NCBI GenBank assembly: GCA_937899835.1
Contig: CALCCE010000199.1
Location: forward strand, 1 to 38,260
Direction of reading: 5' to 3'
DNA from: an uncultured Flavobacteriales bacterium
GTDB lineage: Bacteria; Bacteroidota; Bacteroidia; Flavobacteriales_G; Salibacteraceae
Length of the DNA: 38,260 bases
Part shown: positions 3,094-27,533 of the stretch, in pieces
Numbering within the stretch: the stretch's first letter is position 1
Layout: each line of letters opens with the position of its first letter
Translations under genes and position numbers: made by a program
The notes under the pieces: model-generated
Told to the model about the DNA's origin: nothing
Database searches by the model: none
Seen by the model: the letters and a program-made list of their open reading frames with translations, nothing else

Positions 3094-3598
3094 AACGATC
3101 CACCAAGGGATTTTGAGTTTGGTCTAACCTATAGCAGAAGGGCAATTGTTTCCAGCTTTGCAATTTTAACGGATGCGTTTTAAACCGTTAAACCGTAAGT
3201 TTTATCCCAAAGTGTACGTAATGGCTTTTATCAGTGCCCGGATAGTTGAGTTTGGCCGGCTTGAATGTAGCGCGTTCCACCAGGTTTTCCGAAGTCCCTC
3301 ATTGCCTTTCCGAACACGGCTCTCGGTTTTTTCAAATTATCTGGTGACTCGGTTCTTCAGCGTTTTACGCCGATTGGTAAGCGACTAAGATGACTTGCTA
3401 CCCTCTGCTGGTTACCCCAATTAGGGGCAGCACTTCGGCTGTCGGCTGCCTTTTGCCCAGCCATCGGTATTATTAGGACAGCATACCGATCTATCGTTTA
3501 CCTTTGCCCACTTTCATCTTTTGAATCCGGCCGGTGAGCAATACCATGGCAGTTACGTTTCAACATCACTGCGCAACTTGAGCTGAATAGAATTAGGT
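3094..3598. other. Intergenic region without a supported gene
   Basis: About 500 bases between the minus-strand hypothetical gene and the MBOAT operon. A 71-codon frame at 3173-3388 has a basic, aromatic-rich composition without recognisable motifs, and I consider it spurious. The only positive signal is a -7-like element near 3499. No hairpin-plus-T-tract, tRNA or repeat was recognised. Confidence 0.5.
3499..3506 (+). promoter_or_regulatory. Candidate Bacteroidota -7 element for the MBOAT operon
   Basis: TACCTTTG matches TAnnTTTG exactly and lies 92 bases before the MBOAT start codon. No TTTG element stands 19-21 bases upstream, so the promoter is only half supported. Confidence 0.35.
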
Positions 3599-10830: not shown

Positions 10831-10949
10831 TGGAAAAAATTTGTCACTATCGCACTTATAATGGAAAAAATTTGCGCTTTTGGCGGTTTTAATGGAAAAT
10901 TTTTGTCAAAATTGCGTAATTTGGAGCTTTTAATGGAAAATTTTTGCGG
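10831..10949 (+). repeat. Four phased TGGAAAAWWTTTG repeats in front of the Fic gene
   Basis: Copies begin (at the T of TGG) at 10831, 10862, 10893 and 10934. The first two read TGGAAAAAATTTG and the last two TGGAAAATTTTTG. Three of the four are preceded by AA. The bases after the G are TCA, CGC, TCA and CGG. Spacings of 31, 31 and 41 are close to three, three and four helical turns, so all copies face the same side of the DNA. The last copy touches the GTG start at 10949. This is a likely multi-site operator, probably autoregulatory. Confidence 0.75.
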
Positions 10950-23355: not shown

Positions 23356-23462
23356 GAAGCGCCTGCTTTCAATCGGTTATAGAACGCTCCGGGTGGTGCT
23401 TTCAGTGGCATTGTTTGCGGAGGTACCTCCCCTATTCTTTCGGGTTGGTTTAACTTTATCGT

Positions 23463-24149
23463 GTGAACCAAACGCAAAAAATCAAACTTTCGGTCGATGC
23501 CGTGGTCTTTGGATATTCTTCTGAAAAGGGAATCCTGATCTTACTCATCAAACGAAACAGCCGCACCTTTCGGGGAAGCTGGGCACTTCCTGGAGGCCTG
23601 GTGCGCAACGAAGAATCGTTGGAAGAAGCCGCCAAGCGCGAACTCAACGAAGAAACTGGTGTTTCGATCAATTTCCTGGAACAACTCTACACCTTTGGAA
23701 CTCCCGACCGCGACCCCAGAAACCGGGCTGTTTCAGTGGCTTACTATGCCTTGGTGAGCCCAGATGCCTTTACGTTACAAGCCGATACCGATGCCAGTGC
23801 AGCCGATTGGTTTTCGATAGAGCAACTTCCTGAGTTGGCTTTCGATCATCAAGAGATCGTGGCTACTGCCCTCAAAAGGTTGCGTTCAAAGGTGCTTTAT
23901 CAACCCGTAGGCTTTGAGCTGTTGGAAGAAAAGTTTCCGTTCTCAGATCTGGAAAACCTTTACCAAACCCTACTGGGGTATCCAATCGATCGGAGAAACT
24001 TTCGCAAGAAGGTGCTCAAGTTTGGCTTTGTGGAAGCCACCACCGAGCGCCAAAAGCACGCCGGATCCGGCCGACCGGGTTTTTTGTTTCGTTTCAACCG
24101 CCAACGCTACCACGAATTGGTAGAGCAAGGCATTCATTTCGAGCTCTAA
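23463..24149 (+). CDS. nrtR: NrtR-type transcriptional regulator (Nudix domain plus winged helix)
   Basis: A 228-residue protein with an N-terminal Nudix domain (~1-145) and a C-terminal winged helix (~150-228, including RRNFRKKVLKFGFVEATTER). The Nudix box is intact: G45-x5-E51-x7-R59-E60-L-N-E63-E64-T-G66-V. In the NrtR family the Nudix domain senses ADP-ribose or related NAD metabolites, and the winged helix represses NAD genes. The box is lost in some paralogues such as AraR, but here it is retained, so residual hydrolase activity is possible. It starts with GTG 23463. It precedes nadM, nadV and prs, and two palindromes bracket the promoter in front of nadM, which fits direct repression. 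The symbol is given by family and context. Confidence 0.88.
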   Translation: MNQTQKIKLSVDAVVFGYSSEKGILILLIKRNSRTFRGSWALPGGLVRNEESLEEAAKRELNEETGVSINFLEQLYTFGTPDRDPRNRAVSVAYYALVSPDAFTLQADTDASAADWFSIEQLPELAFDHQEIVATALKRLRSKVLYQPVGFELLEEKFPFSDLENLYQTLLGYPIDRRNFRKKVLKFGFVEATTERQKHAGSGRPGFLFRFNRQRYHELVEQGIHFEL

Positions 24150-24183: not shown

Positions 24184-24216
24184 AAATTTTATGCGTAAAA
24201 ATTACACATAAAATTT
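24184..24216. promoter_or_regulatory. nrtR box 1: Palindrome 1 upstream of nadM (candidate NrtR operator)
   Basis: A 33-base palindrome centred on 24200. The outer arms AAATTTTATG (24184-24193) and CATAAAATTT (24207-24216) are perfect, and only two of the 16 base pairs mismatch (24194/24206 and 24199/24201). The core GCGTAAAA is shared with palindrome 2. Its right edge overlaps the -33 element at 24215. Confidence 0.75.
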
Positions 24217-24245
24217 TGGCGGCTAACTTTCTGCACTTATTTTTG
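24215..24245 (+). promoter_or_regulatory. Promoter of the nadM-nadV-prs operon
   Basis: TTTG (24215-24218), 19 bases, then TATTTTTG (24238-24245): an exact Bacteroidota promoter. Transcription would start near 24251 with a ~15-base leader. Its -33 touches palindrome 1 and its -7 overlaps palindrome 2, so a bound repressor would block both. Confidence 0.8.
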
Positions 24246-24261
24246 CGTAAAATTAACGCAA
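24243..24261. promoter_or_regulatory. nrtR box 2: Palindrome 2 upstream of nadM (candidate NrtR operator)
   Basis: TTGCGTAAAATTAACGCAA is centred on 24252 with one mismatching pair (24249/24255). The core GCGTAAAA is shared with palindrome 1. It overlaps the -7 element and ends four bases before the nadM ATG. Confidence 0.8.
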
Positions 24262-24265
24262 TAAA

Positions 24266-25162
24266 ATGACCACAGCAGTAATCATCGCCCGTTTTCAAAC
24301 CCCATACCTTCACGAGGGGCATCACCAACTGATTCAACAGGTGCGGGAAAAGCACAACAAGCTGATCATTGTATTAGGTATCAGTGCTATCCTGGGCAGC
24401 CGCCGAAATCCTTACGATTACCACACCCGCGAAAAGATGCTGAAAACAGCTTATCCGGAAGTGGTGGTACTACCGCTCCGCGATCAGCCGGAAGACCATC
24501 GCTGGTCGGTCAACCTGGACGAACTGCTGGGCAATGCGTTTCCCAATGAGCAATTTGAACTCTACGGCGGTCGCGACAGCTTTGTGCCCTATTACCAGGG
24601 GCGCTACCCTACCGTGGAACTGCCGCAACACGGACAATTCAACGCTACGGAGATCAGAAACCGCTATGCCGACAAGGTGGGCAACTCTGACGATTTCAGG
24701 GCGGGCATTCTCTACGCCTACCACAACCAGTTTACGAAAGTGTATCCCACGGTAGATGTGGTGGTTTTCCGGAACGACCGGCGGGAAATGCTGTTGGGCA
24801 AAAAGGCCAATAACCTGAAATGGCGCCTTGTGGGTGGCTTTGCCGACCCGGAAGATGAAAGTTTTGAAGCGGCAGCCCGTAGGGAGCTATTAGAGGAGTG
24901 TGGCCCAATCGAAGTGAGTGAGATGCGCTATGAAATGAGCCTTCGGGTTGATGATTGGCGTTACCGCAACGAAGCCGACAAAATCACCACCACCGTTTTC
25001 AGCTGCGATCATTTGTTTGGCACCCCTAAGGCGCAAGACGATATTGTGGATGTGGCATGGCATCCGCTGGATCACATTTGGCAACTCCTGCAAAACCAAG
25101 AAATAACCCCAGCGCACCTGCCCATTTTTGAAAAGCTGCTCGCTAAGTATAACGCTCAATAA
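24266..25162 (+). CDS. nadM: Bifunctional NMN adenylyltransferase (NadM) / Nudix hydrolase
   Basis: A 298-residue two-domain enzyme. The N-terminal nucleotidyltransferase (~1-155) has ARFQTPYLHEGH (8-19), the phosphate-binding His16 and His19, and FNATEIRNRY (125-134), equivalent to the ISxTxxR motif. It makes NAD from NMN and ATP. The C-terminal Nudix domain (~160-290) resembles those of cyanobacterial and Francisella NadM-Nudix proteins, which hydrolyse ADP-ribose. Its box keeps E198-x7-R206-E207-L-L-E210-E211-C-G213, but the first loop is one residue longer than canonical (G191-x6-E198) and Pro follows the last Gly. It is the first gene of the salvage operon, with nadV 10 bases downstream, and is preceded by a promoter with dual palindromes. 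Confidence 0.9.
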   Translation: MTTAVIIARFQTPYLHEGHHQLIQQVREKHNKLIIVLGISAILGSRRNPYDYHTREKMLKTAYPEVVVLPLRDQPEDHRWSVNLDELLGNAFPNEQFELYGGRDSFVPYYQGRYPTVELPQHGQFNATEIRNRYADKVGNSDDFRAGILYAYHNQFTKVYPTVDVVVFRNDRREMLLGKKANNLKWRLVGGFADPEDESFEAAARRELLEECGPIEVSEMRYEMSLRVDDWRYRNEADKITTTVFSCDHLFGTPKAQDDIVDVAWHPLDHIWQLLQNQEITPAHLPIFEKLLAKYNAQ

Positions 25163-25172
25163 CCCCAAGGTC

Positions 25173-26588
25173 ATGGCAAAAGAAAACCTCATTCTACTGG
25201 CCGATGCGTATAAGTATTCGCACCACAAACTCTATTACCCCGGTACCACGCAAGTGTACTCTTACCTGGAAAGTCGTGGCGGAAAATTTGACAGCACCGT
25301 TTTTTACGGCTTGCAGTATTTTCTGAAAGAATACCTCTGTGGCCCTGCCTTTAGCCAGGCCGACCTGGATGCGGCCAAGAACTTCCTGCCCCAGGTATTT
25401 GGTCGAGACGATGTGTTCGACCCCAGCCGCTTTCAGTATATTCTCGACACCTACAACGGTCACCTTCCCGTGCGGATAAAAGCCGTGCCGGAGGGGACCG
25501 AGGTGCCGGTGAGCAACGTTTTGATGACCATTGAAAACACCGACCCCAAGTGCTTTTGGCTGACCAACTTTTTGGAAACCCTGCTCATGCAGGTTTGGTA
25601 TCCTTGCACGGTAGCCACCATCAGCAAGGAGGTGCGCAAAGTAGTAGCCCAATACCACCAGGAAACGGCTACACCCGGCAGCGAGGCTGGAATTGATTTT
25701 GTGCTGAACGATTTCGGTTTTCGGGGAGTGAGCAGTGTAGAAAGTGCCGGATTAGGCGGTAGTGCCCACTTGTTGAATTTTCGCGGAAGCGATACCCTTG
25801 CCGGATCGGTGTTTGCCCAACGGTACTACAAGGCTCAAGAAGTGTATGGCCTCAGTATTCCTGCTACCGAACACAGCATTTGCACCTTGTTGGGCAAAGC
25901 AGGTGAAGCGGACATTTACCGCCATATTCTTGATACCTTTCCCACTGGCGTGGTGGCCTGCGTATCGGACAGCTACAATATTTTTGACGCTTGTGCGCAA
26001 TATTGGGGTACTGAATTCAAGAATCAAATTCTGGAACGAGACGGCCGCCTGGTGATTCGCCCCGACAGTGGTGATCCCGCGATGACCTTGCTCAAAGTGT
26101 TTGACATTTTGTTTGAACGATTTGGGTTTGCCACCAACGAGAAAGGCTACAAAGTGTTGCCGCCTCAAGTACGGGTCATTCAAGGAGATGGCGTGAACTA
26201 TGATTCCATCAAGGCGATTTATGCACGCTTGAAAGCCCACGGCATCAGTGCAGAAAACCTGGTGTTGGGCATGGGTGGTGCCTTGTTGCAAAAGCTGGAC
26301 CGCGATACGCAGAAATTTGCCCTCAAATGCTCTTACGCCAAGTTGAACGGCAAAGACACGGTGGTGCAAAAAAGCCCTACCGAAATGGATGCCGATGGCA
26401 ACATTACGGGGTCGTTTAAAAAATCCAAGGGCGGAAGACTCAAGTTGATTCATAGAAATGGCCATTTTGAAACGGTACCAGAAACCAGCCATCCCGAATG
26501 GGAAGACCAATTGCAAACGGTTTTTGAAAACGGACACTTGCTGAACGAACAAACTTTTGAAGTGCTGCGGCAACGCAGCGCGCTCTAA
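25173..26588 (+). CDS. nadV: Nicotinamide phosphoribosyltransferase (NadV / NAMPT)
   Basis: A 471-residue enzyme that joins nicotinamide and PRPP to form NMN. It is close in length to human NAMPT (491). Key family motifs are present: GSAHLLNFRGSDT with Asp207 (human Asp219), ATEHSIC with His234 (human His247, the ATP-phosphorylated histidine), and VIRPDSGDP with Arg296 and Asp298 (human Arg311, Asp313). I chose ATG 25173, since the open frame begins earlier inside nadM but the protein family starts at MAKENLILLADAYK. It follows nadM by 10 bases and precedes prs by 18 bases, so the operon supplies both its substrate PRPP and the next enzyme. Confidence 0.95.
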   Translation: MAKENLILLADAYKYSHHKLYYPGTTQVYSYLESRGGKFDSTVFYGLQYFLKEYLCGPAFSQADLDAAKNFLPQVFGRDDVFDPSRFQYILDTYNGHLPVRIKAVPEGTEVPVSNVLMTIENTDPKCFWLTNFLETLLMQVWYPCTVATISKEVRKVVAQYHQETATPGSEAGIDFVLNDFGFRGVSSVESAGLGGSAHLLNFRGSDTLAGSVFAQRYYKAQEVYGLSIPATEHSICTLLGKAGEADIYRHILDTFPTGVVACVSDSYNIFDACAQYWGTEFKNQILERDGRLVIRPDSGDPAMTLLKVFDILFERFGFATNEKGYKVLPPQVRVIQGDGVNYDSIKAIYARLKAHGISAENLVLGMGGALLQKLDRDTQKFALKCSYAKLNGKDTVVQKSPTEMDADGNITGSFKKSKGGRLKLIHRNGHFETVPETSHPEWEDQLQTVFENGHLLNEQTFEVLRQRSAL

Positions 26589-26606: not shown

Positions 26607-27533
26607 ATGAAAAAAATTCTCTTTTCTACCCGACCTTATCGTTTTCTTGCCCAAGAGATGCTGGCCTTGGGCGATTTTAAGCGCGGCAAAGTGGAAGAAA
26701 AAACCTTTCCTGACGGCGAGCATTACCAACGCATCCTCACCAATGTAGAAGACCGCAGCGTGGTGCTGGTGGGCGGCACGGTGAACGATGTGACCACCCT
26801 GGAACTGTACGATCTGGCAAGTACTTTGGTGCAACTGGGATGCGCTTCGCTCGATTTGGTGATTCCCTATTACGGCTACTCCACCATGGAACGGGCGGTG
26901 CAACCTGGCGAGGTGGTGGCTGCCAAAAACCGGGCGCGCCTGCTCTCTTCGATTCCACGCAGCCAGAAGGGCAACAAGGTCTATCTTTTCGACTTGCATT
27001 CGGAAGGGATTCCCCACTACTTTGAAGACCACTTAAGGGCGGTGCATGTTTACTGCAAGGATTTGATCATAGAAGCTGCGCTCCAAAATGGTGGAAGCAA
27101 TTTTGTTTTGGCCAGTACCGATGCCGGCCGGGCCAAATGGGTAGAATCGCTGGCGAAAGAAATTGGTGTGAACCCCGCTTTCGTGCTCAAACGCAGGGTT
27201 AGCGGTAGCGAAACCGAGGTCACTGCCATCAATGCAGATGTAGCGGGCAAAACCGTGGTATTGTATGACGATATGATCCGCTCGGGTAGTAGCCTGATCC
27301 ACGCGGCCAATGCCTACCAACAAGCCGGAGCTACCCGAATTGTGGTGATTACTACCCATGCCGTTTTTGTGAATGGAGCCGTGGAACGACTGCAAGCTTC
27401 CGGCCTGATTGAAAAGGTGATCTGTACCAATACCCACGTGGCCAGTCAAGAAACCTGGGGAGACTTTGTAGAGGTGCTGTCCATTGCTCCGTTGATGATC
27501 AAGCACCTGAAGAAGGGTGGCTACCACAAATGA
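26607..27533 (+). CDS. prs: Ribose-phosphate pyrophosphokinase (PRPP synthetase), divergent paralogue
   Basis: A 308-residue enzyme that makes PRPP from ribose-5-phosphate and ATP. FDLHSEGIPHYF (128-139, canonical DLH core), KRR at 195-197 (flexible catalytic loop) and the PRPP loop DDMIRSGSS (221-229) are present. Most bacterial housekeeping enzymes have DDMIDTAGT at the last site, so this paralogue is divergent there. The N-terminal ILFSTRPYRFLA is also unlike the usual start (GNANxxLA). Its position after nadV suggests a dedicated PRPP supply for NAD salvage. A housekeeping prs probably exists elsewhere in the genome, which is not visible here. No terminator was recognised in the ~200-base gap that follows. 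Confidence 0.88.
   Translation: MKKILFSTRPYRFLAQEMLALGDFKRGKVEEKTFPDGEHYQRILTNVEDRSVVLVGGTVNDVTTLELYDLASTLVQLGCASLDLVIPYYGYSTMERAVQPGEVVAAKNRARLLSSIPRSQKGNKVYLFDLHSEGIPHYFEDHLRAVHVYCKDLIIEAALQNGGSNFVLASTDAGRAKWVESLAKEIGVNPAFVLKRRVSGSETEVTAINADVAGKTVVLYDDMIRSGSSLIHAANAYQQAGATRIVVITTHAVFVNGAVERLQASGLIEKVICTNTHVASQETWGDFVEVLSIAPLMIKHLKKGGYHK

Follow-up and report, generated by a model that had tools for sequence, protein, structure and literature searches.

Putative tandem NrtR operators at the nadM-nadV-prs promoter of an uncultured Flavobacteriales bacterium

Introduction

Three described regulators offer the closest comparisons for the locus analysed here. BtAraR of Bacteroides thetaiotaomicron, a member of the same protein family from the same phylum (PDB 5bs6, 5dd4, 5ddg, 5deq), controls arabinose genes from tandem operators located 3 or 42 nt apart before the target operon; its dimer spans about 25 bp, and the DNA in its co-crystal is GCAAAAGTGTTACTTTTACACCCATGC, in which two half-sites with a GTGT/ACAC core are separated by N7 (PMC4666351). 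SoNrtR of Shewanella oneidensis (PDB 3gz5, 3gz6, 3gz8), composed of a Nudix domain and a winged helix, is a repressor of NAD genes, with Arg41 and Arg98 as ligand residues and Lys76 holding a phosphate of ADP-ribose. MsNrtR of Mycobacterium smegmatis binds a 23-bp operator, GTTTTCGA-N7-TCGAAAAC, represses its own gene along with the de novo nadABC genes, and is released by ADP-ribose (PMC6800001). According to published accounts, the Nudix signature of the NrtRs of NAD metabolism is impaired (PMC4666351), as are the Nudix boxes of BtAraR and SoNrtR; that of MsNrtR is broken and hydrolase activity of this protein is not detectable (PMC6800001).

Here, we describe a related arrangement in a 38,260-nt stretch of DNA (hereafter, the window), for which a sequence-only reading had proposed that two palindromes around the nadM promoter form a nearly ideal layout for NrtR repression.

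Results and discussion

An NrtR-family gene precedes a NAD salvage operon

Four genes follow each other on the forward strand: nrtR (23463–24149, GTG start), nadM (24266–25162), nadV (25173–26588) and prs (26607–27533), with a 116-bp gap separating nrtR from nadM. The nrtR product combines a Nudix-like N-terminal domain (PF00293, 2e-23, 83 bits against a cut-off of 21) with the NrtR winged helix (PF21906 NrtR_WHD, 4e-21, 75 bits against a cut-off of 27) and also matches AraR_C (2e-13). Its closest solved structures are those of BtAraR (5bs6, 7.6e-49) and, next, SoNrtR (3gz5, 1.1e-31); with the narrow NrtR equivalog model NF050029 of NCBIfam it reaches 142.6 bits, below the curated cut-off of 400. 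The sugar-responsive AraR branch is recognized by Gly at BtAraR position 89 and a sugar-gene context, neither of which is found here: the regulator carries Arg86 at the equivalent position, as do all 80 relatives, and is surrounded by NAD genes. NadM, a bifunctional NMN adenylyltransferase/Nudix protein, was assigned from PF01467, PF00293 and its relatives, with PRK05379-type models scoring below cut-off. NadV, a nicotinamide phosphoribosyltransferase (PF04095, PF18127), and Prs, a ribose-phosphate pyrophosphokinase, exceed the cut-offs of NF006629 and TIGR01251, respectively.

The same genome encodes an NrtR/AraR-family paralogue (C305), the gene of which adjoins phosphofructokinase- and GAPDH-like genes (locus L167) and which is probably a sugar-type regulator. 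It has GTGT-N7-ACAC palindromes of its own, before itself (L167 2128–2154) and before the next gene (3216–3242).

Two palindromes flank the nadM promoter

The nrtR-nadM gap contains an exact promoter string, TTTG-N19-TATTTTTG, with the −33 element TTTG at 24215–24218 and the −7 element TATTTTTG at 24238–24245, both on the forward strand, in agreement with the consensus of the Bacteroidota primary sigma factor, TAnnTTTG at −7 and TTTG near −33 (PMC7366714). It is flanked, as had been claimed, by a 33-base palindrome with two mismatched pairs (24184–24216, centre 24200) and a 19-base palindrome with one (24243–24261, centre 24252), the latter extendable to 24240–24264 with two mismatched pairs. 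The 52 bp between the centres correspond to 4.95 helical turns at 10.5 bp per turn, matching the five turns originally noted. When the 116-bp gap was shuffled 5000 times with its dinucleotides preserved, 17 shuffles contained a palindrome equal to the first in quality and one contained both.

The conserved unit within each palindrome is a 21-mer that belongs to neither strand in particular, namely, the predicted distal operator TATGCGTAAAAATTACACATA (24190–24210) and the predicted proximal operator TTTGCGTAAAATTAACGCAAT (24242–24262), with 3 bases between the latter and the nadM ATG. The AAATTT on the outside of the 33-mer is AT-rich flanking sequence. The core initially thought to be shared by the two sites, GCGTAAAA, has to be replaced by TTTGYGT-N7-ACRCAAA, with TTTGYGTA as the conserved half-site. 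The overlap of the second palindrome with the −7 element holds also for the 21-mer, which uses the TTTG of TATTTTTG as its first four bases. By contrast, the contact of the first palindrome with the −33 element is a property of the 33-base palindrome only, given that the distal 21-mer ends 4 bases short of the TTTG.

The paired motif is conserved among relatives

A NadM alignment, searched against the genomes of 84,980 species, yielded 80 loci, mainly from Mucilaginibacter, Chitinophaga, Saprospiraceae and Cytophagales. The nrtR-nadM-nadV order is kept in most of 84 loci, many of which also include prs, and operator motifs are present; the nadM upstream regions of relatives share the motif TTTGYGT-N7-ACRCAAA. 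A 27-position weight matrix (PWM) built from 121 unique sites of relatives, with the window left out, places the two window sites on top (24187–24213, score 26.4; 24239–24265, 26.3; training median, 29), followed by a match of 9.1 over the nrtR start, whereas the maximum across 20 Markov copies of the window is 13.3. An isolated moderate match (8.9) at 10897–10923 is probably due to chance. Among the 150 best candidates that it scored in the 6.9-Mb genome of the bacterium, a profile model derived from the sequences alone reported no match (E up to 10) other than the two sites, each detected on both strands. These two models took the place of short-pattern genome scans (GCGTAAAATTAACGC with 3 mismatches; TTTGYGT-N7-ACRCAAA with 2 mismatches), which returned as many matches as the reversed control.

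Conservation of the palindromes upstream of nadM, nadV or prs in relatives had been named as the comparison to make, and it proved to be strong, with the motif paired and placed identically relative to the promoter. The palindromes are very probably operators arranged in tandem and recognized by the NrtR-type repressor whose gene lies immediately upstream, and through them the nadM-nadV-prs operon would be controlled. A diverged NrtR clade (L042 and L043, 45–46% identity), in which nadM directly follows nrtR, has TTAGTGT-N7-ACACTAA-type sites before nrtR instead, which suggests a shift in operator sequence.

Spacing of the predicted operators and the proposed mode of repression

We compared the layouts of 78 distinct Bacteroidota nadM promoters with a clear site. 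Two or three sites are present in 75 of these and a single site in the remaining 3. The spacing is 51–54 bp in 41 promoters, as in the window (52 bp), and 26–28 bp in 31, whereas three promoters have three-site forms (25+27 bp); no spacing between 29 and 50 bp occurs among the 78. In 73/78 promoters, the first bases of the proximal site are the TTTG of the −7 box TAnnTTTG, and 65/78 have a further TTTG 18–20 bases upstream. In the 27-bp layout, the upstream operator begins with this −33 TTTG; in the 52-bp layout, the operator ends shortly before it. In the NrtR tree, the window groups with four Saprospirales entries (97/89), all of which use 27–28 bp, and the distribution of layouts over the tree requires at least six changes, implying gains and losses of operators in steps of fixed size. 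We also considered the −33 TTTG as a relic of a lost middle operator and rejected this idea: CGT follows the TTTG in only 2 of 30 distinct long-layout promoters, and no right half survives.

In the model that we favour, each operator would bind one NrtR dimer via TTTGYGT half-sites 7 bp apart, and every dimer would block a promoter box of its own, the proximal one covering the −7 box and the probable start site and the distal one lying against the −33 box. Together, the two dimers would bar RNA polymerase from the nadM-nadV-prs promoter and control the pathway that converts nicotinamide and PRPP via NMN into NAD. Derepression would occur when a NAD-derived ligand, most probably ADP-ribose, accumulates and detaches the dimers. 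By analogy with the family, we propose binding, repression and ADP-ribose/NAD as the effector; the dimers may also cooperate.

Alternatively, repression could depend on contact between two dimers on one face of the DNA, five turns apart, rather than on independent occlusion. The same-side arrangement suggested for the window does apply to the 51–54 bp layouts, which always stay near five turns and account for 41/78 promoters. However, it fails for the 26–28 bp layouts, where about 2.5–2.6 turns place the dimers on opposite faces, and hence is not a general rule; these 31 promoters, the three with 25+27 bp spacing and the use of 27–28 bp by the closest relatives of the window in the NrtR tree make dimer–dimer contact as the mode of repression somewhat unlikely.

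The sites follow the regulator across genomes

The assignment of the sites to NrtR is further supported by genomes in which the regulated genes differ. In genomes of the same family that lack nadM, nrtR neighbours prs and/or a different nadV, with an identity of about 35%, and site pairs are found at those promoters. In G015, nrtR is divergent from prs and a 39-bp site pair precedes nadV; in G009 and G010, nrtR is divergent from the different nadV, which is followed by a prs-like gene. The site pairs at these nrtR-divergent promoters are 54 bp (G015) and 53 bp (G009, G010) apart. In G117, the nadM site is intact although nrtR resides on another contig. Conversely, in three same-family genomes without nrtR (G008, G011 and G014), the best profile matches have E values of 0.3 or worse. 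A control with the other nadV in nrtR-less relatives shows co-absence only, as that gene is missing from them too.

In addition, a DinB-family gene of G117 that is remote from NAD genes is preceded by a strong pair of NrtR-type operators with a spacing of 63 bp (L189 3995–4084; G117 C1:238495–238582). This pair, the only exception seen to the location of the motif at nrtR or NAD genes, is a possible extension of the regulon.

The palindromes could, in principle, serve another regulator, such as one of the two NrtR-family paralogues of this genome, C305 and C198, or a Crp-like protein, and the sites of C305 at L167 2128 and 3216 illustrate that half-sites are similar within the family. Yet, the window motif gives these sites scores of only 4.6 and 1.2, and is itself associated, in different genera, with nrtR or NAD genes and has no clear counterpart in the nrtR-less genomes of the same family, making this explanation very improbable. 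Finally, although both palindromes are inverted repeats and the start codon directly adjoins the proximal one, their function as RNA hairpins, in termination or translational control, is hardly credible considering the AT-rich arms with loops of 1–7 bases, the position of the distal site upstream of the promoter and the DNA-type nature of the conserved features (the bases of the half-sites, the length of 21 bp, the 27/52-bp phasing and a constant overlap with the −33 and −7 boxes).

A possible third operator at the nrtR start

The third-best PWM match in the window (23458–23478, no strand; 9.1) spans the nrtR GTG start. Strong sites (scores 17–24) lie across the nrtR GTG in six relatives (L076, L097, L102, L164, L165 and L166), each beginning 5 bases before the GTG, and the weak site has the same offset. 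All seven genes start with GTG, which belongs to the operator. The window site probably represents an eroded autoregulatory operator; its right half, however, could be kept in part by the protein sequence (TQ), which renders this copy uncertain. A candidate −7 element of nrtR, TAACTTTA (23451–23458, forward strand), precedes the GTG by 4 bases and would yield an almost leaderless mRNA. Many nrtR starts of Mucilaginibacter (L069–L101) show TAACTTTG-N4-ATG, which suggests that the mRNA is almost leaderless there as well.

DNA contacts, ligand and the Nudix box

The GYGT-N7-ACRC of the predicted operators is in the same frame as the GTGT-N7-ACAC of the BtAraR DNA, and the window motif as a whole is in frame with the operators of both AraR and MsNrtR, although the flanks are TTT/AAA in the window and AAA/CCA in BtAraR. 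The contact residues of BtAraR, Lys179, Arg180, Asn181 and Lys184, correspond to Arg177, Arg178, Asn179 and Lys182 of the regulator, conserved in 78, 80, 80 and 80 of the 80 relatives, respectively. Similarly, Arg41 and Arg98 of SoNrtR are matched by Arg31 and Arg86, which are invariant in the 80 relatives. Given that AraR has Gly89 at the latter position, this would favour a nucleotide rather than a sugar as the ligand. By contrast, Lys76 of SoNrtR is replaced by a catalytic Glu, so that the ligand may differ.

Unlike the three characterized proteins, the regulator retains the full GX5EX7REUXEEXGU Nudix signature (GLVRNEESLEEAAKRELNEETGV), which is also intact in 53/80 relatives and broken in those from Chitinophaga. 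An intact box is, hence, a common trait rather than a family-defining one, and is the one point of wider interest. The full signature, together with the preserved ligand arginines, leaves room for a repressor that hydrolyses ADP-ribose. A rather speculative scenario is that the regulator destroys its own inducer, forming a self-resetting NAD salvage switch in which the 27- and 52-bp operator steps tune the strength.

Implications

Because the same paired motif recurs at the nadM switch of about 75 related bacteria, it is almost surely the place where the neighbouring NrtR repressor would bind. The biology is solid but fairly ordinary, tandem NrtR operators being an already known type. What the locus provides for Bacteroidota is a concrete and testable NrtR operator motif, together with the layout of a NAD salvage promoter, in contrast to AraR, the characterized NrtR-family regulator of this phylum found in the literature consulted, which senses a sugar. 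It further suggests a simple design rule, whereby operators step 27 or 52 bp along the promoter, anchored on the −7 and −33 TTTG, and, owing to the intact Nudix box, a bifunctional sensor-enzyme becomes a testable proposition.
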